Assembly: GCA_003249035.1 (NCBI GenBank)
Contig: QBMK01000009.1
Location: 1-49,260, forward strand
From: Pseudanabaena sp.
GTDB taxonomy: Bacteria > Cyanobacteriota > Cyanobacteriia > Pseudanabaenales > Pseudanabaenaceae
Direction: 5' to 3'
DNA length: 49,260 bases
In this document: one piece after another, positions 17,220 through 27,835 of the stretch
Position numbering within the stretch: position 1 is the stretch's first letter
Layout: every line of letters begins with the position of its first letter
Program-made: the position numbers and the translations under genes
Notes under the pieces: generated by a model
The model's database searches: none
Seen by the model: only the letters and a program-made list of their open reading frames with translations
What the model was told of the DNA's origin: nothing

Positions 17220-17402
17220 AAACACAAATTATTAAATCTAATTTTACTTTAGCGCTTTATGTAGCCATCACCAAAAACCAGAGCTTAGAGTTCTTATGAG
17301 GTGGCGATTATATATGATGTGTGATCTTTGTTGCCTAAGCTAAAATGAGCTATAAGCCTTTAGTTTAACTAAACCACCACAAACCAGTATGGTGATACTT
17401 TG

Positions 17403-18986
17403 ATGAGCAATTCTCAACCATCAAATCAAAAATCGAACTCTTGGATTGGGCAAACTGTCGGAGACAGAAACAGATATCACATTACCAATCGCTTGGGTGG
17501 TGGTGGGATGGGAGAGGTCTTTTTAGCAACTGATATGCTGTTGGGGCAGCAAGTAGCCCTAAAAATGCTCAAAGAAAAGCTTCTACAGGAATCGGAAGTT
17601 AGAAAACGTTTTGAGAGAGAAGCATTATTATGTGCAGCGATCCAAGGCGAGCATGTTGTGGAAGTGAAAGACTATGGATTAACAGATGAAGGCTATCCAT
17701 TCTTTGTGATGGAATATTTGCGAGGTCAAACTCTAGGATCGCTTCTGCATAAAGAGCATCGGCTTTCTATTGAACATACGGTAAAAATCATTAGTCAGGT
17801 CTGTGACGGATTGTATAAAGCGCATTCTGGCGTAATTATGTCCCATGAAGGGGCGAAATCTGGAGAAAGAGTTTATCTTGTCCATCGGGATTTAAAGCCT
17901 GAAAATATTTTTTTAGTCAACACTTCTTTAGGTGAGCTAGTCAAAATTCTAGACTTTGGCATTGCCAAAGTTTTTAGCAACGAAATGCAAGCCACAAATA
18001 CAGGCTTGTTTATAGGCACTTTTCAATATTCATCACCTGAACAAATTGAAGCTAGAAAAGATTTAGATCTGCGTGCTGATATCTATAGCCTTGGCATGAT
18101 CCTCTATGAAATGCTTTGTGGAACTGACCCATTTGGCTGCCTTGCTGAAGGAAGAGGCGGCTCGAATTGGTTGCGATCGCATATCTCTGATGCACCGCGA
18201 TCTCTAAGATCTCAACCAAACTGTAAAAATATACCGCTCTCATTAGAATCTGTGGTGATGAGATGTTTAAGTAAATCACCTAGCGATCGCTTTGAATCTG
18301 TATTATCACTCTATCAGTCTTTGCAAGAATCTACAGGCATAAAGATTGATGCAGGAATGATGCGAGCAATTGCGGCATCTGCTGAAACTACGATATCCAC
18401 ATCAGATTTACTACAAGCAAAAATAACTGGTCAAACTCCACCTAGTAATGAATCCAGCAATCCACCTAGCAATCCATCACAACCACAAACGAAATCGTCA
18501 CAGCTTAATGATGATACTACTTCTGAAATTAAAGAAAAATTGGTAAATGTGTTACTCAGTTACGTTGGACCAATTGCCAAATTTTTAGTCAAACAGACCA
18601 AAATAGACTCTGCTAGCTCTTCAGATACGATTGAGCGGCTGAGTCATCATGTACCGCCTTCTCAACAGACTGAATTTAAAGCCAAAGCTCAGACTGCGTT
18701 CTTAGAGATCGAGCGTAAAATTACTAGCTCAAAGAGCGATAATTCAAAGAGTGGTAATACTCCAGCACCAGAAACTCCGACTGCAAATAACCCTAACAGC
18801 CAAATCAGTCAGATTTTTATAGATCGATGTCAACAAGAACTATCGGAAATCATTGGACCTATGGCAAAGTTGATTTTAAAGAAAGCTTTAGCTCAAAATC
18901 CATCCCAAAGTCAGTTGATTGAAGCGATCGCTAAACAGATTCCCGAGCCCAACTATGCAGAGCAGTTTCGCAAAAAGTTTAATTAG
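17403..18986 (+). CDS. Ser/Thr protein kinase with duplicated C-terminal domain
   Basis: 527 residues. The kinase domain (about 25-310) has LGGGGMGEVFLATD, VALKML, HRDLKPEN (161-168), DFGIAK (184-189) and GTFQYSSPEQ. An insert before the catalytic loop (GVIMSHEGAKSGERVYL) is typical of a cyanobacterial subfamily. After a Pro/Ser/Asn-rich linker (about 345-370) come two related helical modules, each with an IGPxAKxLxKK-like core (YVGPIAKFLVKQTKI and IIGPMAKLILKKALA) followed by a PxxxxxxFxxK ending. No transmembrane segment, so it is cytoplasmic. ATG at 17403 preferred over TTG at 17400. It is convergent with the heme-sensor gene and may be the kinase for the FHA protein at 22978. Confidence 0.87.
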   Translation: MSNSQPSNQKSNSWIGQTVGDRNRYHITNRLGGGGMGEVFLATDMLLGQQVALKMLKEKLLQESEVRKRFEREALLCAAIQGEHVVEVKDYGLTDEGYPFFVMEYLRGQTLGSLLHKEHRLSIEHTVKIISQVCDGLYKAHSGVIMSHEGAKSGERVYLVHRDLKPENIFLVNTSLGELVKILDFGIAKVFSNEMQATNTGLFIGTFQYSSPEQIEARKDLDLRADIYSLGMILYEMLCGTDPFGCLAEGRGGSNWLRSHISDAPRSLRSQPNCKNIPLSLESVVMRCLSKSPSDRFESVLSLYQSLQESTGIKIDAGMMRAIAASAETTISTSDLLQAKITGQTPPSNESSNPPSNPSQPQTKSSQLNDDTTSEIKEKLVNVLLSYVGPIAKFLVKQTKIDSASSSDTIERLSHHVPPSQQTEFKAKAQTAFLEIERKITSSKSDNSKSGNTPAPETPTANNPNSQISQIFIDRCQQELSEIIGPMAKLILKKALAQNPSQSQLIEAIAKQIPEPNYAEQFRKKFN

Positions 18987-19125
18987 GAATTTTTTAGCAA
19001 ATTAAGACTTAAGTGGAGAGAATCCCTGCGATCTTAATCACATAATGCTAGCAAGATTAACATAGCCCAAAAAGAAATCAGAATTATTCATGTATGAGAA
19101 AGCCTCTAGAGGTTTCTACTGGTCA

Positions 19126-20025
19126 TTATTCAGGATTATTTAGCATTTCCATTGCCATTGACAGGCTTAGCTTCATGCGATTAAACGCATTTGCTAAAAC
19201 TCCAATCTCATCATGAGAAGTTTGTTTAAATTCAGTATCCATTTTACCAATGCTGACATCATGAGCAACTTGAGCCATTTGATTAAGTGGCTTGATCACT
19301 GTGAACCTTAAAAATAGGTTGACTACTAAAATCGCGATCGCGAACATCCCACATACAGCCAGCATCACAAACAACAAAATTTGTCTGCCACTATTAATAA
19401 CATCTTGTGAAGGCACGGAAATTATCTGAGCACCAACAATTTCATTGAGTTTCCATCCGAAGCCATTATCTCTTCCATAGGTAGCCAACATACTTTTAGG
19501 GGCGGCTTCAGGAGTGCTATGACAGCGCAAACAACTTTCTTTGCTAACGCTTATCGGACGCGCTATATAAAATAAATCGCCACCTGTAAAAGAACGAAAT
19601 CCTGTAAGTTCTTTTGTATTAGTATCATTCCGAAAGCGTTGCACTAACTCTGTTTCAAATCCGTCGGCTTGATCGCGTAAATTCGTTGGATTTAGTGTCG
19701 CTTCTTTATAGAAAAAGTCAGCATATTCTTTTTGTGTGCGAAAATGTTCAAATACTTCCCTTGCTGAATAACCAGGTACTGTTTGAGGCAAAAATTCTGC
19801 TTCTTGTTCTATTCTAGGTGCTAGTTGTGGTCCTACTTGTGTACTAGTATAGTTGCGAATTGAATTCATTGTCTGGAGCATAATCTGTGCTTTAGAGACA
19901 GTTTGAGATTCAGTGTTGCGATTCAAAATCACCGATAAAGTCACGCCACTAAATATAATACATATCAAAAAAGCAGCTAGTAGAAGTAGGTTAAATTTTG
20001 CACTAAGACGCAGATTATTCAGCAT
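19126..20025 (-). CDS. Membrane c-type heme sensor (DUF3365/Tll0287-like) ending in HAMP
   Basis: 299 residues. Transmembrane helix 1 is at about 12-33, followed by an extracytoplasmic DUF3365 domain with a single covalent-heme motif CLRCH (Cys165, Cys168, His169), transmembrane helix 2 (214-239) and a HAMP domain (about 240-290). The protein stops there, with no kinase, cyclase or methyl-accepting domain. The periplasmic part resembles Tll0287, a heme protein proposed to sense redox state. It would have to signal through a partner; the convergent Ser/Thr kinase and the divergent lipoprotein are candidates. ATG start; 56 bases from the divergent gene. Confidence 0.85.
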   Translation of the reverse strand: MLNNLRLSAKFNLLLLAAFLICIIFSGVTLSVILNRNTESQTVSKAQIMLQTMNSIRNYTSTQVGPQLAPRIEQEAEFLPQTVPGYSAREVFEHFRTQKEYADFFYKEATLNPTNLRDQADGFETELVQRFRNDTNTKELTGFRSFTGGDLFYIARPISVSKESCLRCHSTPEAAPKSMLATYGRDNGFGWKLNEIVGAQIISVPSQDVINSGRQILLFVMLAVCGMFAIAILVVNLFLRFTVIKPLNQMAQVAHDVSIGKMDTEFKQTSHDEIGVLANAFNRMKLSLSMAMEMLNNPE

Positions 20026-20081
20026 AATGGCTTTACAGTTCTTAGAATAATTAAATTTAGATTGTAAGCTAAGAAGAACCT

Positions 20082-20969
20082 ATGCTATTGATGCTTTACA
20101 AAAATATGTTTTCCCGCCGTTCATTTCTTAGTCAATTTTTAGTAGGATTACTAATTGGCTGTACTCCCAAAAAGACGATTGGCGGCGATAAACTCGTCAT
20201 TGGGATAGTTGGCTATGGCGAAGAAAAAAAGTCAATTGAACAATATCAACGATTTAAAGAGCATATGTCTGCGATGACTAACTCAATAATTGAGTTGGAG
20301 CCTACCTTTAATGAGGTAAAAGCGCTGGAACAAATCAAACGGCGGGCATGGTCATTGGTGTTTGCTCCACCCGGCTTAGCGGCGATCGCAATGTCTAAAG
20401 AGCAATATACACCGATATTTGCGCTGCAGGGCCCTGTTAATTTGCATTCTGTACTGGTAGTTCGCGCTGACAGCCCTGTCACAAAAATATTAGATCTCCA
20501 AAATCGGGCAGTTGCCTTAGGGCAGGTTGGCTCAGCTACAGGCTACTATCTACCTATTTACGACCTTTATGGCTTAACACTTTCTGAAATCGTATTTGCT
20601 TCTACACCCAAAAATGTACTTGAATTGATTGAAAATGGAACCGTAGCCGCAGGTGCACTATCCAAGGTCGAATTTGAATCTTTAAGTCGTCAGATTGGCA
20701 AAGAAAAGTTTCGGATTCTTTCTACTAGTACTCAGAGTGTCCCATCGGGATTAGTTTTACTGGCTCCTACGGTTGAACGAAATCAAGCAGAATTAATTGT
20801 TAATGTTATGAAATCGGCTTCTCCTACAGTTATTAATGAAGCAGGTTATATTCCCAATGTGGCAATTCCTGACTATACGTTCTTAATTAAAGTAGTTGAA
20901 AGAGTCAGACCGATTGTCACCCGTATTAAGCAAAAGCCTGCACCACTTTTCGAGGAAATTCAAAAATAA
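20082..20969 (+). CDS. PhnD/SsuA-type substrate-binding lipoprotein
   Basis: 295 residues of a type 2 periplasmic-binding fold related to phosphate/phosphite/phosphonate-binding proteins (KLVIGIVGYGEEKKSIEQYQRFKEHM..; ALGQVGSATGYYLPIYDLYGL; VAAGALSKVEFESL). The N-terminus has a twin arginine (Arg12-Arg13) followed by a hydrophobic stretch and a lipobox GLLIGC (Cys27). A second ATG at codon 9 (20106) is an alternative start giving a shorter signal peptide. No permease or ATPase genes are near, so it is more likely a sensory binding protein feeding the divergently encoded heme/HAMP sensor than a transporter part (inference). Confidence 0.82.
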   Translation: MLLMLYKNMFSRRSFLSQFLVGLLIGCTPKKTIGGDKLVIGIVGYGEEKKSIEQYQRFKEHMSAMTNSIIELEPTFNEVKALEQIKRRAWSLVFAPPGLAAIAMSKEQYTPIFALQGPVNLHSVLVVRADSPVTKILDLQNRAVALGQVGSATGYYLPIYDLYGLTLSEIVFASTPKNVLELIENGTVAAGALSKVEFESLSRQIGKEKFRILSTSTQSVPSGLVLLAPTVERNQAELIVNVMKSASPTVINEAGYIPNVAIPDYTFLIKVVERVRPIVTRIKQKPAPLFEEIQK

Positions 20970-20994
20970 GAGACAAGGAATGGGTTAATCTGCT

Positions 20995-22254
20995 TTAGAT
21001 AATTCCATCATCTGCCATTTCTTCACGGGTATATGTAATCGAAAAATCTAAGAAAAAGCCATAAAGTTCAATCTCAGCGACAGCAGGGAAAAGACGCAAA
21101 GTACTGATTCCTAGGGCTTTAGGATTGTCGGCAAGCCAACCGAAAGCCTCTTTAGTATGAGCTTGCACGATTAACACTTCACCATCTACGGTATGGCTAA
21201 GAGATAGATCAGCATCACCTGGTTTTAAATGCAATTCATTGTAAATTTGTCCGAGCATCCGCCATTGATGCCGCCAATAAGTCATACCTTGTCTTTCGAG
21301 CTTAATCGCATACTCAGCTAGAGTTACAATATTGCGCCAAGTAATATCTTTCCTTTGAAAAACTATACGTAGTTCGCTCATAGCTTGTTCACAGGCTTCT
21401 TCAAATTTAAGCAATGGTATTGGATCAGCTAAACGACGTGGTGTTTTACCCAAAATCATCAGCGATTGAATGACAGTTGTTTCAATCTGTCGGGATAGCT
21501 GTTCTTTCGCTTTTTGAGTTTGCCATATAACGCCTTGTTCAGTTGTGGCATACATCGCTGGCAGCCGATTCAGAACATAGGCACAAACATCATCAGCGCC
21601 AACTTTGCGTGGCAAAATATTTGCCATATGGAGTAATTGATTTTTTACTTCTTGTTCTACTAGATCTTCTAAAACATTGGTTAAGAAATAAGAAGCTGAA
21701 AGGATATAGGAGTCAAGTTCAGGATTAGGTAGTTCAGAGTTATTATGCCAATCTCGATTTTCATGCTGATGAGTGTCTTTACGCCGTAGATAACCTTTAG
21801 TTTCTCGTAATCGATGGCGATCGTTAACACTCAAACTTACATATTCTGGTGTGTGGCTGACTAGAGTAAGCGTTTCCTGAAAAGCCTGCGGAACATGTTG
21901 CCATTGCATTGAAGGCTTACTAAAAAGTTTTTGTAACCTAGTCAAAACATGAGCAGGGGTCTCTACTTTACTAGCTGCAATTTTGGTGTATTTCCGCAAA
22001 GGATCACGCTTTACCCCTAAAAGAGCTTGTTGAACAGCGCTTACAATCTGATTTTGTAGTTCATTGTGAGCACGTTTGCGCTGCTGTAACCATCCTCGAC
22101 TAGTACTAGCGTAAAGTACTGGCAATCGATTTAGTGCAAAAGCAACCACATCGCTAAGGTTAATTGCTTCGCGGGCGATTGGGGTGAAATACTTGAGTTG
22201 CTCTTGCACTTCTGTGACAACGATTTCCTCAAGGACATTTTTGAGGCTAGTCAT
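20995..22254 (-). CDS. Protein with two ComFB (late competence) domains
   Basis: 419 residues. Two copies of the ComFB domain are visible: residues ~5-80 (NVLEEIVVTEVQEQLKYF..DVVAFALNRLPVLYATS-like) and ~190-270 (NVLEDLVEQEVKNQLLHM..DVCAYVLNRLPAMYATTEQG). Cyanobacterial ComFB proteins have been reported as cyclic-di-GMP and cAMP receptors. A Cys-poor linker separates the copies, and the last ~130 residues (from about 290) contain an unrecognised alpha/beta segment ending in acidic residues. No membrane segment. ATG start. It is convergent with the PhnD-like gene (26-base gap) and has 723 bases of non-coding DNA upstream. Confidence 0.82.
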   Translation of the reverse strand: MTSLKNVLEEIVVTEVQEQLKYFTPIAREAINLSDVVAFALNRLPVLYASTSRGWLQQRKRAHNELQNQIVSAVQQALLGVKRDPLRKYTKIAASKVETPAHVLTRLQKLFSKPSMQWQHVPQAFQETLTLVSHTPEYVSLSVNDRHRLRETKGYLRRKDTHQHENRDWHNNSELPNPELDSYILSASYFLTNVLEDLVEQEVKNQLLHMANILPRKVGADDVCAYVLNRLPAMYATTEQGVIWQTQKAKEQLSRQIETTVIQSLMILGKTPRRLADPIPLLKFEEACEQAMSELRIVFQRKDITWRNIVTLAEYAIKLERQGMTYWRHQWRMLGQIYNELHLKPGDADLSLSHTVDGEVLIVQAHTKEAFGWLADNPKALGISTLRLFPAVAEIELYGFFLDFSITYTREEMADDGII

Positions 22255-22323
22255 AAGTTTTTACTTCTAGACATTTTATGTTTGATAGCCCTTATATATA
22301 TGATCTGCTGGGAAATAGTGACT

Positions 22324-22359
22324 AAAATCGCTGTAATCCCTAAACAGGTCAGCTTCCAA
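22324..22359. promoter_or_regulatory. 36-bp block shared with 27945-27980
   Basis: It matches 30 of 36 bases, without gaps, with a block upstream of the membrane Fe-S gene. Both blocks start AAAATCGCTG and end AGCTTCCAA and lie in the same orientation relative to a minus-strand gene. Here it is 70-105 bases upstream of the ComFB gene start. It could be a shared operator or a remnant of a dispersed repeat. Confidence 0.45.
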
Positions 22360-22529
22360 ATCCAAATCAAGATCCTTAAAAACATTGCCCAGAATATGTT
22401 GTAAGGATTTCAGGGATTATCAATCAACAGGCGCTACTCATCTTTAGCTCTGTAAGGATTGTCTCTTCCCCAACATGAATCTAGCAATTGATTCTCCCCG
22501 ACTTGGGCTAATGAGCAATCTTAAAGTTA

Positions 22530-22922
22530 AACAACTAAATAGTACTCCCATCAGGTCAAATATTAAGTAGCTTTTAATTTACATCAAGATGTATAACAAC
22601 TTGTCTAATATACGCGATGTGCAACTATTTTTGAGCCATCGCCATGAGGTTGTTTGAGACATAGAAAATTCAAACCCCTCATTAGTGCATTACGATGAAT
22701 CAAGGCTTTCAGACTTTTAGTTGCACATCGCGTCTAATATTGTACTTAATATGTTTTTTCTTCCCCTTACCAGTTGCCTTTTTCGCTTTTTTTTAGCCTT
22801 GGTTGGACTTTGCTTATATGCCTCCTCAAAACTTGACACCAAGTCTTTAAATACTTTTAGGTTTGTCCTGTCATTGTCCTCACTAGACGATCTTGCTTCA
22901 GGATGCGTTCAATGTTTAACAT
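22530..22922 (-). pseudogene. Decayed transposase (IS5-group, DDE_Tnp_4 type) N-terminal remnant
   Basis: On the minus strand an ATG at 22922 gives MLNIERILKQDRLVRTMTG. After a frameshift the reading continues NLKVFKDLVSSFEEAYKQ and then GRKKHIKYN, the usual N-terminus of a cyanobacterial IS5-group transposase (MLxIxxxLKxDRLxRAxTGLN..F..L..SFxxAY). The reading is then cut by a 122-bp inserted element and resumes on its other side as DKLLYILM-stop-IKSYLIFDLMGVLFS, matching the expected KLLFILxYxKxYPTFDLMG. At least two frame changes and one stop make it non-functional. The catalytic C-terminal part is not recognisable. Family assignment is from memory of the pattern. Confidence 0.75.
22612..22733. 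mobile_element. 122-bp MITE-like element with 16-bp terminal inverted repeats
   Basis: The ends are ACGCGATGTGCAACTA (22612-22627) and its exact reverse complement (22718-22733). The element is flanked by a direct repeat CTAATAT (22605-22611 and 22734-22740), i.e. a 7-bp target duplication (8 bp if the shared T is counted). The interior is too short to code. It interrupts the decayed transposase gene, so it inserted independently. Confidence 0.88.
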
Positions 22923-22977
22923 TATTTCTAAGCCTTAAAACCTGGTTTTTATATTAACTTATTAACCAACGGGTCTA

Positions 22978-24654
22978 TTAAACATCGATCGCAACTTTTC
23001 CTTTGGGGAAAGCGACACAGCAGAGGATATACCCAGCATCTATTTCTGAAGGTTCGAGAGCTTCTGGATCGTATTCTTCCATTTTTACCTCACCCTCTAA
23101 TTTTACCTTCTTGCAACTACCACAACTACCAACACGGCAACTATTACGGATTTTGACACCTGCTTGCTCGGCAATTTCTAGGATCGATTCTTCGCCATCA
23201 CAAGGGACTTCTTTTGCTGATTTAGTAAAAATCACAGTGGCAACAGGTGCCTTGCTAGTTATAGGAGCATTTGGCGATCGGCTAGTTACGGACATCGCTT
23301 CTATAGGTAGTTGTAACTTACCAAGCCACGCCTTGATTCCAAAAGCTGGATAAAGTTCGCTTGCTGGTTCCTCTTTAACTGATTTTGGTGACTTTATCGC
23401 ACCGCCAAAACTTTCTTCATGATATTGCTGCATCGGAAAGCCGATTCCTTCTAACAAAGATTTCGTGCTTTGCATGAAGCTTTCAGGGCCACAGACAAAT
23501 ACAGTACGATCTCGCCAATCGGAGGCAATCATTTCCAGCATAGATGGTGTCAGTCTGCCACGCATTCCCATCCACGATTGTTGAGGAGTGGAACGAGTAA
23601 TTGTTACAGCCAGATGAAATTTTGGAGATCGCACTGCCATCATTTCTAATTCTTGGCGATAGATAATATCTTCTGGACTCCGCGCACAATGAAAAAAGAC
23701 AACGTCACAGTCCGAATGTGTGTCATAAATCCAACGTGACATCGACATCATCGGGGTAATGCCACTCCCCGCCGAGAGAAACAATAACTTTTGAGAAGGA
23801 TACTCAAAACAAGAGAACTTGCCAAATGCCCCACTTGCCTGAATCTGACTACCAATTTTTAGATTGTCATGCAGCCAATTGGAAACCAGACCCGCAGGAA
23901 TAGTGGGATCTTCTGGATTAGCAGAGGGAACACGCTTAACAGTAATTTCTAGAGAATGGGGGCGGGACGGTGATGACGAGATGGAATAAGAACGCAATAT
24001 TTCTACACCATCGATTTCAAGTTCAAGTGTAATAAACTGTCCCGCCTTATAGGTAAAGAGATGGGGAGGGGTAGTGCCAAAGCAAAAGGTCTTGACATCG
24101 ATGGTTTCTTCAATGATTTTGAAGCATTCCAAAGTGAGAGTTCCCTTTGTCCAACGAGTAATTTGGCTGGGGTCAATGGTGGCAAGTGGCATATATTGAC
24201 TGGGCACTGCTGGAGCTTTAGCAATCTCTGCGAGGCGATCTAGATCTTTGCCTGCATTAAATGGGCTATTTAAGTGGGCAAGAGATGGCTCGGTCGGATC
24301 TTCTTTCTCTTCTAAAGATTTTGTCAGGGCATGGGGTGTAATCTCTTCGATTAGAATCGCAAAGTCGCCTAGTTGAATAATATCTTTTGCTGAGAGTTGA
24401 ATAGCGTGCAAAGGTTTGATTTGCATATCATTAATTTGCACTCCATTGGTACTTTTCAGATCGACAAAGTGATATTGATGTGCTTCAAAAGAAATTTTGC
24501 CATGTTCGCGGCTAACGGTCCCATTATTGAGGACTACATCACAATGAGGCGCACGACCAATCAGAAAATCGTTCTTTTTACTGATTTCAGTTGATAGTTG
24601 AATTGGTTCTAGTTCTTGAGAAATCTGTACATTGAAAATTCTAAGTTTTAGCAT
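22978..24654 (-). CDS. FHA domain - flavin reductase - 2Fe-2S ferredoxin fusion protein
   Basis: 558 residues in three parts. (1) FHA phosphothreonine-binding domain, residues 1-103, with Gly33-Arg34, SREH (48-51) and STNG (68-71). (2) After a ~65-residue linker, a ferredoxin-NADP-reductase-type module (about 165-415) with RSYSISSSPSRPHS (FAD), LSAGSGITPMMSM (nicotinamide) and VFVCGPESFM. (3) C-terminal plant-type ferredoxin with CRVGSCGSCKK and a last Cys in ILCCVAF, the CX4CX2CXnC 2Fe-2S set. Modules 2 and 3 resemble Hcr-type reductases that pass electrons from NAD(P)H to a partner. An FHA in front suggests docking to a phosphorylated protein. ATG start. The membrane Fe-S protein gene lies 135 bases upstream on the same strand. 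Confidence 0.9.
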   Translation of the reverse strand: MLKLRIFNVQISQELEPIQLSTEISKKNDFLIGRAPHCDVVLNNGTVSREHGKISFEAHQYHFVDLKSTNGVQINDMQIKPLHAIQLSAKDIIQLGDFAILIEEITPHALTKSLEEKEDPTEPSLAHLNSPFNAGKDLDRLAEIAKAPAVPSQYMPLATIDPSQITRWTKGTLTLECFKIIEETIDVKTFCFGTTPPHLFTYKAGQFITLELEIDGVEILRSYSISSSPSRPHSLEITVKRVPSANPEDPTIPAGLVSNWLHDNLKIGSQIQASGAFGKFSCFEYPSQKLLFLSAGSGITPMMSMSRWIYDTHSDCDVVFFHCARSPEDIIYRQELEMMAVRSPKFHLAVTITRSTPQQSWMGMRGRLTPSMLEMIASDWRDRTVFVCGPESFMQSTKSLLEGIGFPMQQYHEESFGGAIKSPKSVKEEPASELYPAFGIKAWLGKLQLPIEAMSVTSRSPNAPITSKAPVATVIFTKSAKEVPCDGEESILEIAEQAGVKIRNSCRVGSCGSCKKVKLEGEVKMEEYDPEALEPSEIDAGYILCCVAFPKGKVAIDV

Positions 24655-24739
24655 AAAGGTTCCTAAAACAATAATCCTTAAACAAAGAAATAATAGTTTT
24701 TAATGATGTTACTTGGAAGTTTTAAAAACTCAACCCTAG

Positions 24740-24759
24740 CTCCTCTGCATGCAAAGGAG
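24740..24759. promoter_or_regulatory. Near-palindrome CTCCT-TGCATGCA-AGGAG upstream of the FHA-reductase gene
   Basis: The 20 bases are symmetric except for one mismatched pair. It is centred about 95 bases before the FHA-reductase ATG and 30-50 bases past the stop of the upstream gene. It may be an operator or a small terminator. A short match to the 36-bp block (TAATCCTTAAACA, 24672-24684) is nearer the ATG. Confidence 0.35.
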
Positions 24760-24789
24760 AATGGCATTTTTCTTCCCATGTAACATGAG

Positions 24790-27729
24790 TTATTGTCGAT
24801 TCACAGACATTTGTGACGAAAGCATACTTTGGAGGGAAGTACTGACAGAAATTAGTAAATGTTGTGTATACATGGGATCTTCACTTAGGGCTTGCATAAA
24901 CACTTTGGCATTAATCACTAAGATCAAGGTTTGGGGTGATGTGGCGATCGCTAAATTTGTAAAGGGAGTTTGAGTTAATACTTCCAATTGTCCAATCGTT
25001 TGATTGGGAGTAATCTTTTTGACGAGCTGATGGCGATCGCCACCATTAGAACGAATCTCTACTGAACCATTGACTATCGCCCAGATTGTCTTTGGTATAT
25101 CTCCTGTTTGATAGATCGCTTCACCTGTGTTATAAATCCTGATCACTGATTGTTTCGCTATTTCTGCAAGGGCATCAGTTTGGAGAGGACGAAACAGACT
25201 GTTGCGAAATAACAGTAATAGCTTGTCAAAGGTGTCTAGAACTTGATTATCATCAGAGCTTAATAAATTAGTTGCTAAATTATCGCTTGAGATTTTGTTG
25301 GATGTATTTTGGGATGTCCTTTTAGAAGCAGGTTGTCTGATAGGAATAAAGGATTTCGCTTCTTCCGATAACAATGCATGTGAATGGGGATCTCTCAAAA
25401 TATGTTGGGCTTCTTCTGTGGCTTTCGGCATATCAATCTGCTTTAAAGCATACAGGCTAGCCGCTCTCACTAAAGCATCAGGATCTTCCATTAATTGAAT
25501 TAATACAGTGAAGACTGATTCTCTACTCGTCGGTGGTAAGAGCAACTCTGTAACAGTCTTGATCGAGTTAAAAATTTCGATTATTTTAGGTGGCAGACGA
25601 TCGTGCCAAGGGGGAGTCTCGGTTTCGTCATCAAGTAAATCGCTCAAAATATTTGCTGCTAGACCTTTATGGGTAAGAGATTCGATATCTTTAGCAATTG
25701 TGTAGGCTTCAGGCGCATCACCGAAAATTTCGAGAATTCGTAGGAGCTTAATGACTAGAGATCGCTGCTGTTGTTGAAGTTTGAAAACTAGCAAACTAAT
25801 AACATCTGTTGGCAAATCAGCTGCTCTTTGTAGGATATGCGCGTAGCGAGCGAGAGTCTGAAGCTTTTGATAGGCATCTTTTGCAATTGAATCTAAAAGA
25901 CTACCTTGCTCGCAAATACTAGCTAAAATTGCCGCCTCTTCTTGCGCTGTGACATTATATTCTTGACGAAAAATTAAAATTTGTTCCTCTTTAAGTTGCA
26001 TCAATTTATTTAAAGGTAAATTCCTCTCAACTAACTCTTGTAACATCAGTTCTAAGGAGCGGCGATACTTACCCAATCGAGATTCATTTTCTTGGATAAT
26101 TTGTCTGGAAGTACTGAGTATTTGAGTGTCGTTAATTCCCATCTCTCCAAGAATCTGATTATGCTCTTCCTCATTAATATCTAACTGCTGACGCATTAGG
26201 TCGAATACTTCCAAACTACTAGAGGAATTCATATTGCCTGCACTCAGTGACTCTTTGAGGACATCTTTATACATTTGCACACGTTTTTCATGGGTGAGTT
26301 CGGGTAGGGTTTTCGCCAAGACGTAGACTTCATCTGGCTTGAGATCTGCAAGCGATCGCCCTTCTAAAACTTTAGAAAAATCAAAGGCTAACTTGCTGAG
26401 TTGGCGGCGTAAACTCGTAGCCAGACTCTCGCGAGCATACATCTGCGAAGTGCGCCAAAAGGTTCTATAAAACCACAAGGTCGAAGCAATCACAGCCATC
26501 CAGCCAATAAACTGTTGCTCAAAGGTTGGTAGCCAGCCTAATGTGGGGTTTACTCCCATCCAAAACAGCAGATTAAAGGAAATAAACGCACATAGCGTAA
26601 AAGCGCGGTGTTGGATTTGAGAGGCAGTTAAGACAAGGTTGTGGCGCTTGCTGTAACGCTTGTAAGAGCGTTCTATTTGTCTCCCAATTACATAGGTAAT
26701 CAGGGTTGTAGTCGTCAGAGTTAAAGGAACTGCAAAAATTTTGGGTATGGGAATTGCTTGCCCTGATATATAAAAACCCGGTTGTAGGAGCATGGAGAAT
26801 TGATCGGTCTCGTCCCATACGCCACCAGCCAAGAAGTTGGGATTGCCAGAATATAAAGTGAAGTAAGCGTAAAATCCAATTACTAAACCGAGATAGCTAT
26901 AATAAAGAAATTTGCGATCGCTACGATAGATACCATCCCAATAGGAGCGCTCGGCATCAATATCAAAGCAAGGTGACTGGCAGCTTACACAGGCGCTTTT
27001 CTCTTTACCAGCTCGATCGACAGTGCGACACATCGATTGGGTAATCCCAGATTCTTGATTTTGGTGAGCTTCGCTTGCCAGTAAACCGCGTGGTCCGGTG
27101 TACACTACCTGTACTGGAGCCATCGGACAAAAATAATGACACCAAGATTTCCCTCCATAGAGAAATCCTATAGTCACAGCCACTAGTATGGTCAGACACA
27201 AAAAGATGCCGAGGGCAAGGCGATCGGAGTTAACAAATAGTAAGCGTACATTCAATCCGAGAAATAACAATCCAAACTGCACATACAGAGAATTACGCCC
27301 CAGCCATGAATTTTTAGAGATTGTTACAGGCTCGGAGCGGACAATATTAGTTAGCGGATCAACAACACGACGACGACGTTGCCATCCCAATGCTCTAGGG
27401 ATTTGTGACACAAACATTAACGGACAGATACGCCTCCATGCCTCATGTCCGAATATTAAAACCATAAAAATAACAAGCGGGACAATTATGCCCCAAAAAA
27501 GTCTTGCCCCCATAGCGTAAGGTTCGAGATTATCGCAAGTATCTTGAAATTGCACACATCCCAACTCCTTTTTGATCCGAAATGGACTAAGTAACATATT
27601 TGGATCGTTGGGATCGGTCAAATGGTAGGAGATGGGGTCATAAAACATCGAAAAGATGAGAATTAGCCATCCGATTGCGAGTAGCCACCGAACATAATGC
27701 ATCTGCTTTTCTGAGACCTTTTGGAACAT
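24790..27729 (-). CDS. Polytopic membrane Fe-S protein with helical-repeat region and C-terminal cyclic-nucleotide-binding-like domain
   Basis: 979 residues. The N-terminal ~430 have about ten membrane helices with cysteine motifs of the NapH/NosR/CcoG membrane-ferredoxin type: RRICPLMF, SWCHYFCPMAP and CRTVDRAGKEKSACVSCQSPCFD. The middle (about 430-830) is a long helical cytoplasmic region with a HEAT-like repeat (DPDALVRAASLYALKQI). The C-terminal ~125 are a CNB/Crp-type domain, but the phosphate-binding cassette reads IGQLEVLTQTPFTNLAIA, lacking the usual Glu and Arg, so canonical cAMP binding is doubtful. The ATG at 27729 has GGAGGG 10 bases upstream; a TTG at 27747 overlaps that site. 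Likely partner of the downstream FHA-reductase, moving electrons across or into the membrane (inference). Confidence 0.82.
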   Translation of the reverse strand: MFQKVSEKQMHYVRWLLAIGWLILIFSMFYDPISYHLTDPNDPNMLLSPFRIKKELGCVQFQDTCDNLEPYAMGARLFWGIIVPLVIFMVLIFGHEAWRRICPLMFVSQIPRALGWQRRRRVVDPLTNIVRSEPVTISKNSWLGRNSLYVQFGLLFLGLNVRLLFVNSDRLALGIFLCLTILVAVTIGFLYGGKSWCHYFCPMAPVQVVYTGPRGLLASEAHQNQESGITQSMCRTVDRAGKEKSACVSCQSPCFDIDAERSYWDGIYRSDRKFLYYSYLGLVIGFYAYFTLYSGNPNFLAGGVWDETDQFSMLLQPGFYISGQAIPIPKIFAVPLTLTTTTLITYVIGRQIERSYKRYSKRHNLVLTASQIQHRAFTLCAFISFNLLFWMGVNPTLGWLPTFEQQFIGWMAVIASTLWFYRTFWRTSQMYARESLATSLRRQLSKLAFDFSKVLEGRSLADLKPDEVYVLAKTLPELTHEKRVQMYKDVLKESLSAGNMNSSSSLEVFDLMRQQLDINEEEHNQILGEMGINDTQILSTSRQIIQENESRLGKYRRSLELMLQELVERNLPLNKLMQLKEEQILIFRQEYNVTAQEEAAILASICEQGSLLDSIAKDAYQKLQTLARYAHILQRAADLPTDVISLLVFKLQQQQRSLVIKLLRILEIFGDAPEAYTIAKDIESLTHKGLAANILSDLLDDETETPPWHDRLPPKIIEIFNSIKTVTELLLPPTSRESVFTVLIQLMEDPDALVRAASLYALKQIDMPKATEEAQHILRDPHSHALLSEEAKSFIPIRQPASKRTSQNTSNKISSDNLATNLLSSDDNQVLDTFDKLLLLFRNSLFRPLQTDALAEIAKQSVIRIYNTGEAIYQTGDIPKTIWAIVNGSVEIRSNGGDRHQLVKKITPNQTIGQLEVLTQTPFTNLAIATSPQTLILVINAKVFMQALSEDPMYTQHLLISVSTSLQSMLSSQMSVNRQ

Positions 27730-27835
27730 GCTGTGATTGCCCTCCAATGATTTCTTATGCTTAATTTGATTCTCACGGCAAGAAGATGTACTTATGCTTA
27801 AGTGTCCTTACCTTAGCGCAGATACTACCCAAAAA

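Follow-up and report, generated by a model that had tools for sequence, protein, structure and literature searches.

Several described systems resemble parts of the locus that we analyse here. FHA domains recognise phosphothreonine rather than phosphoserine. GarA and OdhI, acted on by their kinases, are switches in cis in which the FHA domain recognises a phosphothreonine located in a flexible tail. Eukaryotic NADPH oxidases join a membrane redox protein to an NAD(P)H module that is gated by phosphorylation or Ca2+. Among the NAD(P)H reductases, GbcB is typically found near its Rieske partner GbcA. The FHA domain of DgcB reads a phosphothreonine in the flexible tail of the same protein (PMC6733907). 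For membrane proteins, two CX3CP motifs define the NosR/NapH/RdhC type (PMC5928378), and CcoG is a cupric reductase (PMC8267372). A survey of cyanobacterial kinases includes FHA among the domains that kinases carry; the word 'ferredoxin' does not occur in its main text (PMC2176072).

In the locus described here, an FHA domain is fused to a reductase and this reductase is paired with a membrane iron-sulfur protein. Each component is of a known kind; the fusion, the pairing and a docking polarity that can be reversed are apparently undescribed in the open-access literature, as judged from titles and abstract openings. The preliminary description of this DNA mentions Hcr-type reductases and no standard one that bears an FHA domain.

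The FHA reductase and its closest families

The following features of the reductase were annotated in the window, that is, the whole stretch of 49,260 nucleotides that was analysed.

22978..24654, minus strand: FHA-FAD-NAD-2Fe2S reductase (RED), 558 aa (ORF list and Pfam)
24367..24564, minus strand: FHA domain, residues 31-96, with GR, S48, H51 and STNG intact (Pfam, model and structure match)
24160..24336, minus strand: linker behind the FHA domain, residues 107-165, low confidence (model)
23815..24105, minus strand: FAD_binding_6 domain, residues 184-280 (Pfam)
23461..23781, minus strand: NAD_binding_1 domain, residues 292-398 (Pfam)
23002..23220, minus strand: 2Fe-2S ferredoxin domain, residues 479-551, with C506, C511, C514 and C546 (Pfam)

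The preliminary description had placed an FHA domain, a reductase and a ferredoxin domain at 22978-24654. These coordinates are exact and the strand is minus; the plus-strand reading was rejected, with stops throughout and a single ORF of at least 100 aa (116 aa). By eye, an SD-like AGGAA lies five bases ahead of the ATG. The domain search recovered the whole four-domain architecture above the curated Pfam cut-offs: FHA (2.5e-16, 60.3 bits against a cut-off of 20.7), FAD_binding_6 (1.2e-13), NAD_binding_1 (2.8e-19) and Fer2 (1.1e-13). Together with the four cysteines of Fer2, which confirm the reported ferredoxin motifs, this makes the protein an FNR-type reductase with a 2Fe-2S domain. The FHA key positions are as intact as had been stated (G33-R34, S48, H51, S68-T69-N70-G71), and all residues that contact phosphothreonine (R34, S48, H51 and N70) are present. 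Furthermore, the FHA fold is borne out by the Pfam match and by the predicted fold of residues 1-106, which matches FHA structures, among them 6hc1, a complex of the DgcB FHA domain with a phosphopeptide (Z 15.8, 2.2 A, 101 residues aligned, 23% identity). The model of the whole protein is of middling confidence (pLDDT 71.8), and pLDDT is below 50 across residues 108-159. The linker contains a conserved EDPTEPS-like stretch with Thr121 (24292-24294, minus strand), and this threonine is conserved in 9/9 aligned members of the genus, FHA proteins without Fer2 among them.

When comparing the reductase to named families, we find that the best NCBIfam match is GbcB (NF058606) with 378.9 bits, which is under the equivalog cut-off of 500. 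The match to NF007964 'NADH oxidoreductase', which we take to be Hcr, reaches 184.6 bits. The preliminary description had mentioned Hcr-type reductases; the best-scoring named family is GbcB instead. The catalytic chain and the domain order are common to the window reductase and to NAD(P)H reductases of the GbcB, Hcr and PaaE type. FHA-less reductases of Pseudomonas, which are taken as GbcB-like although their family placement is presumed, align over residues ~130-170 to 557 with ~40% identity. In contrast to these reductases, the window protein carries an N-terminal FHA domain and scores below the GbcB cut-off, and it pairs with a membrane Fe-S protein instead of a Rieske oxygenase. Rieske and hybrid-cluster domains are absent from the six proteins of the window that were scanned (17400-27747).

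The reductase gene is separated from the gene of its membrane partner by a gap of 135 bp (24655..24789), with both genes on the minus strand. A scan for promoters and terminators gave 11 promoter-like sites compared to 14.5 in shuffles and 6 terminator-like sites compared to 4.9, and the Rfam scan returned a single tRNA and nothing else. Downstream of the reductase, at 22606-22739, lies an inverted repeat whose 22-nt arms are 91% complementary and 90 nt apart, which may be a small mobile element. Further downstream of the pair, at 20995-22254, a protein with two ComFB stretches is encoded, and a homologue occupies the same place in locus L009.

The membrane iron-sulfur partner and its distribution

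The partner of the reductase has the following features.

24790..27747, minus strand: membrane iron-sulfur partner, 985 aa from TTG (ORF list)
26458..27711, minus strand: membrane module of the partner, residues 13-430 (alignment and model)
25381..25521, minus strand: HEAT-like repeats (HEAT_2, 27.1 bits, just below the cut-off of 27.7)
24880..25140, minus strand: cyclic-nucleotide-binding (cNMP) domain (Pfam and structure matches)

Judging by the alignment, translation more likely begins at the ATG at position 27729, which gives 979 aa. In the model, which is weak (pLDDT 69.7), residues 13-430 form eight long helices that we read as transmembrane. The cysteines occur as Cys108-Pro, as Cys203-x3-Cys207-Pro and at positions 240, 253, 256 and 260, and all seven are invariant in the 14-row partner alignment. 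An additional pair, C64/C71, is near-invariant (13/14 rows), with Denitromonas as the row without it. Based on the helix count, and taking the C-terminal regulatory modules as cytosolic, the invariant cysteines would lie on the cytosolic face and C64/C71 on the opposite face.

The membrane module remotely resembles CcoG and NapH, as far as sequence indicates. Six relatives of the partner (L018, L123, L134, L136, L138 and L142) match Fer4_5 (PF12801) above its cut-off of 22 bits; L010, L013, L126, L128 and L132 are below it, L130 is not among the matches listed, and neither is the window partner at E 0.001. With CcoG/RdxA, NapH and NosR, the family shares the Fer4_5 matches of these six relatives, one CX3CP motif and, on the side predicted to be cytosolic, a Cys-rich stretch. 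Of the two CX3CP motifs, however, the partner has the second only (C203-x3-C207-P); the first lacks its first cysteine and reads W104-x3-C108-P. In contrast to this group of proteins, the Pfam matches of the partner include no FMN-binding domain, and the partner family adds FHA, cNMP, EF-hand or tail modules. Compared to CcoG itself, the partner family scores far under the cut-off of TIGR02745 (316.7 bits): the best of five relatives scanned reaches 20.5 bits, and the window partner is not among the matches at E 0.001. A sequence search of the PDB with the membrane module returned no relative at E below 0.37, and the structure matches to the partner model fall almost exclusively on its cNMP domain, so that the fold of the membrane module was barely probed.

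The two genes recur as a pair. Of the distinct loci whose fetched stretch holds both of them, with the reductase recognised by its FAD/NAD part, 67/69 have them on the same strand with a gap of at most 1 kb, and the membrane gene comes first in all 67. The exceptions are L020 (3.4 kb apart) and L170 (7.5 kb apart, on opposite strands). Of 86 distinct FHA reductases, 19 have no partner on the fetched stretch; some of these are at contig ends, and for some the partner is elsewhere in the genome (e.g. G143, G105, G280, G296 and G346). The partner also exists without a reductase, and then carries cNMP, EF-hand or fused Fer2 modules. Among 386 genomes drawn from the phylum, reductase matches (E 1e-60) were found in 15 and partner matches (E 1e-20) in 50; at E 1e-50, reductase matches were also found in 48/291 genomes of one order and in 11/38 genomes of the window's order, there in one genus exclusively. 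These genome counts rest on reductase similarity, with the in-frame FHA domain checked in the fetched loci only. Outside cyanobacteria, the pair was seen in Denitromonas only, among the best 80 of 232 relatives, and in 150 genomes of the Denitromonas family the partner occurs in that one genome only.

Several partner loci have other arrangements. The genome of the window holds a second copy of the cNMP type (L123, G000:C55:133894-136695), which sits between an alpha-amylase gene and an OprB porin gene and has no reductase neighbour. C-terminal EF-hands are present on two membrane partners without a reductase on the stretch (L142:6854-9025 by Pfam; L182:3128-5575 by eye), which are possibly a Ca2+-gated version. 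At L139:7478-9346, a ferredoxin (Fer2) domain is fused to the C-terminus of the membrane partner, as if the 2Fe-2S domain of the reductase met the membrane protein. At L141:2491-10700, a partner without a reductase is preceded by genes whose NMT1_2 and ABC_tran domains suggest an ABC transporter of the nitrate type.

FHA states, threonine motifs and kinases

To describe the FHA domain across the family, we used 86 distinct homologues with a full FHA domain (90% identity clusters). G33 is kept in 86/86, R34 in 82/86, S48 in 83/86, H51 in 85/86 and G71 in 78/86, and position 70 is Asn in 32 and Asp in 24. As N70 is variable, the complete set of key residues is found in the lineage of the window and in many of the relatives, but not in every one. 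The fusion itself recurs in cyanobacteria and Denitromonas and is thus well beyond chance. Among the fetched loci, the reductase ORFs of L161, L206, L207 and L220 have no in-frame FHA domain, and in L021 the reductase ORF is split between frames. The window's genus also has FHA-FAD-NAD proteins of 412-445 aa without Fer2 (L164, L233, L234, L235, L236 and L237), which keep the PTEPS linker and have no membrane gene on the stretch, so that the FHA domain may have other uses.

In tails of partners without FHA, we observed a threonine motif, T-x-[ILVMFYA]-[RK]. Examples from short partners beside a reductase are EADEPTVIRRKRY, QADLPTLIRRKPN, CAETQIRRKKR and DSDRTQVKRP repeats. The motif was initially defined on data already seen and then fixed before new genomes were tested. 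In the first set, from which tails shorter than 12 aa were left out (this removed L126 and L129), it occurs in 18/21 partners beside a reductase (4.1 expected by shuffling) and in 2/8 partners without a usable reductase alongside (1.6 expected), these two being L021, with the split reductase, and L151, whose reductase is elsewhere in the genome. From the new genomes, we excluded loci that did not have exactly one partner as well as 10 reductases with an identity of 90% or more to the first set; here, the motif was found in 19/26 tails (8.1 expected), with 36 occurrences compared to 10.4 expected (sd 3.0, maximum 20 in 500 shuffles). Pooling 32 representative tails, excluding tails below 10 aa, partners of at least 780 aa and partners with FHA, cNMP or Fer2, gave the motif in 27/32 (7.3 expected by shuffling) and 52 occurrences compared to 9.0 expected (sd 2.8, z 15.1). 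The motif is specific for threonine: Ser in the same frame occurs 12 times (9.3 expected, sd 3.1, z 0.9), and each of twelve other residues tried is under expectation. By eye, both Leptolyngbya boryana tails miss the strict motif (0/2; they end in KTIPYRPKPR and QTVPYQRK), and the window partner has no T-x-hydrophobic-R/K in the linker region where relatives carry an FHA domain.

Furthermore, the FHA states of reductase and partner are complementary in the 67 distinct reductases with a classified partner (the 19/86 without a partner on the stretch have no class). Where the partner has neither FHA nor cNMP, position 70 of the reductase is Asn (16) or Asp (21) in 37/41, and in the window's genus, where the partner has cNMP only, it is Asn in 5/5. 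Where the partner carries FHA, position 70 is neither Asn nor Asp in 21/21. In one group, consisting of L011, L172, L186, L189 and L247-L249, the partner FHA is degenerate and the reductase FHA is also without Asn or Asp at position 70.

In reductases with an FHA-bearing partner, a second motif, T-x-[ILVMA]-[DE], is found just behind their own FHA domain (e.g. EEDKTLIESQ, NEDTIVEIP). Where R, S, H and N are retained in the FHA domain of the partner, 14/16 reductases have this motif, with L167 and L171 as misses, compared to 0/5 where the partner FHA is degenerate (Fisher p 0.001, not corrected for kinship). As an unconditioned rule this motif was rejected, as it failed the first new set (1/3 with an FHA-bearing partner, 1/26 without). 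Two of those three FHA-bearing partners have a degenerate FHA, which was noticed only afterwards; the conditioned rule is thus post hoc. In a further 15 loci of one family, close relatives that had not been examined before, the motif occurs in 12/12 with an intact and 0/3 with a degenerate partner FHA. On the tree, the state of the partner FHA changes only 4-5 times, with two changes forced by starred branches, which leaves two supported independent pairs (four on all branches). On average, position 70 is as expected in 1.9 and the linker motif in 1.1 of the two pairs, a test that cannot reach significance. On this unrooted tree, a starred branch of 26 rows unites the reductases of the window's genus with those that have an FHA-bearing partner. 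The genus nevertheless has the canonical STNG, which is consistent with a return of the reductase to the reader role.

Ser/Thr kinase genes are enriched beside the pair. Of 60 loci with sufficient flank, 15 have a kinase gene no more than 1.1 kb from the pair, on the same strand in 12. A density of one kinase per 150 kb predicts about 1.7 such loci and twice that density about 3.4; the loci are related to each other, so that a binomial p is a guide only. The density across 24 reductase genomes is at least about 1073 matches in 172 Mb, or roughly one per 160 kb as a lower bound, and ranges from at least 13 to at least 68 matches per genome. In comparison, a profile built from four kinases found no kinase gene in any of 19 control loci (membrane gene, no reductase) over 2.5 kb, or over the part of this distance that the stretch covers; at least L137 is shorter than this on one side. 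The kinases that were typed differ in build, with a WD40 type upstream in L016 and L023 and a CHASE2 type downstream in L010. On two L. boryana plasmids, the genes for a CHRD protein, a kinase, the membrane protein and the FHA reductase are consecutive, and a 2-nt gap or a 4-nt overlap lies between kinase and membrane gene; LBWT_RS30320, LBWT_RS30315 and LBWT_RS30310 are such a kinase, membrane protein and FHA reductase. For the proteins of the pair, RefSeq gives the names 'FHA domain-containing protein' and 'hypothetical protein', and no more. The CHRD-domain gene precedes the kinase in both clusters (L240:4355-5209 and L241:4433-5269) and is a possible extracytoplasmic link. The kinase gene closest to the pair in the window is on the opposite strand at a distance of 4 kb.

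Proposed phosphothreonine docking and its alternatives

We consider it probable that docking of a phosphothreonine to an FHA domain wires NAD(P)H electrons via the reductase into the membrane Fe-S protein. In the mechanism that we infer, two proteins would form a membrane redox system, with the reductase as the soluble half that oxidises NAD(P)H. Electrons would pass from NAD(P)H to FAD, to the 2Fe-2S cluster of the reductase and to one or more Fe-S clusters on the cytosolic face of the partner, which would hand them to an acceptor in or across the membrane; this acceptor might be a quinone, a disulfide on the extracytoplasmic side or, as for CcoG, a metal ion. Ser/Thr kinases would set whether the halves meet, with the FHA domain of one half binding a phosphothreonine on the other. 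For the majority of the classified relatives, this phosphothreonine would sit in the flexible tail of the partner with the reductase FHA as reader; in a largely Nostocaceae-like group, the polarity would be flipped, and the partner FHA would read a threonine of the reductase. The chances seem evenly balanced for the fuller version of a kinase-controlled electron plug, in which the contact flips polarity, the unused FHA domain loses its ligand site, and cyclic nucleotides and Ca2+ act as further inputs, the latter in other members of the family. Whereas GarA, OdhI and DgcB are cis switches, the contact here would mostly lie between the two subunits of a redox pair and, unlike theirs, would be reversed in one group. 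The pair resembles the eukaryotic NADPH oxidases only in how it would work, with EF-hands occurring in one partner; those oxidases contain haem whereas this pair is Fe-S, and the comparison extends neither to homology nor to superoxide output.

The preliminary description had proposed that the FHA domain targets electrons to a phosphorylated partner. At the family level, this fits the pairing, the kinases, the threonine motif in the tails and the complementary FHA states; its direction needs amending for the group with reversed polarity. In the window's own genus, the partner has no FHA domain and, by eye, no tail motif. As the partner lacks FHA and the reductase FHA is canonical, the reductase should be the reader here, with the cyclic-nucleotide domain of the partner as a second input. 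As putative ligand, we consider a so far unrecognised partner site or, alternatively, Thr121 within the linker of the reductase itself.

The latter would fit a cis switch, in which the linker phosphothreonine folds onto its own FHA domain and toggles the reductase, and the partner is not the ligand. This reading draws on the conservation (9/9) of Thr121, which follows directly after the FHA domain in an acidic stretch of low model confidence, and on DgcB as the closest FHA structures, one with its own phosphorylated tail peptide (PMC6733907). We regard it as rather unlikely, since beside FHA-bearing partners the linker motif tracks the state of the partner FHA (14/16 against 0/5) and the reductase's own FHA lacks Asn or Asp at position 70, and since in the other group the threonine motifs sit on the partner. 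The ranking of GbcB as top NCBIfam match and the FHA-less Pseudomonas reductases would also suit a GbcB/Hcr-like reductase that serves a soluble oxygenase or hybrid-cluster protein, with FHA bringing the reductase to another phosphorylated enzyme. The score below 500 bits, the six scanned genes without a Rieske or hybrid-cluster domain and the recurrent membrane Fe-S neighbour make this improbable. Finally, the FHA domain could act independently of phosphate, for structure or dimerisation, and the threonine motifs could be basic tail patches for the membrane surface, given that the FHA Asn is not conserved family-wide and that the partner tails are R/K-rich. We deem this very improbable, as the tail motif is specific for threonine over serine, kinase genes are enriched next to the pair, and R34, S48 and H51 are kept in nearly all homologues.

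If phosphothreonine docking is correct, there would be a direct link from Hanks-type kinases, which are numerous in these cyanobacteria, to NAD(P)H electron flow to the membrane, and redox traffic would be switched through phosphorylation-dependent docking and not through gene expression. Two otherwise anonymous protein families would gain a testable role, and the neighbouring kinases would get candidate substrates down to the residue level. Furthermore, the family would provide a natural experiment on the polarity reversal of a phospho-docking interaction.
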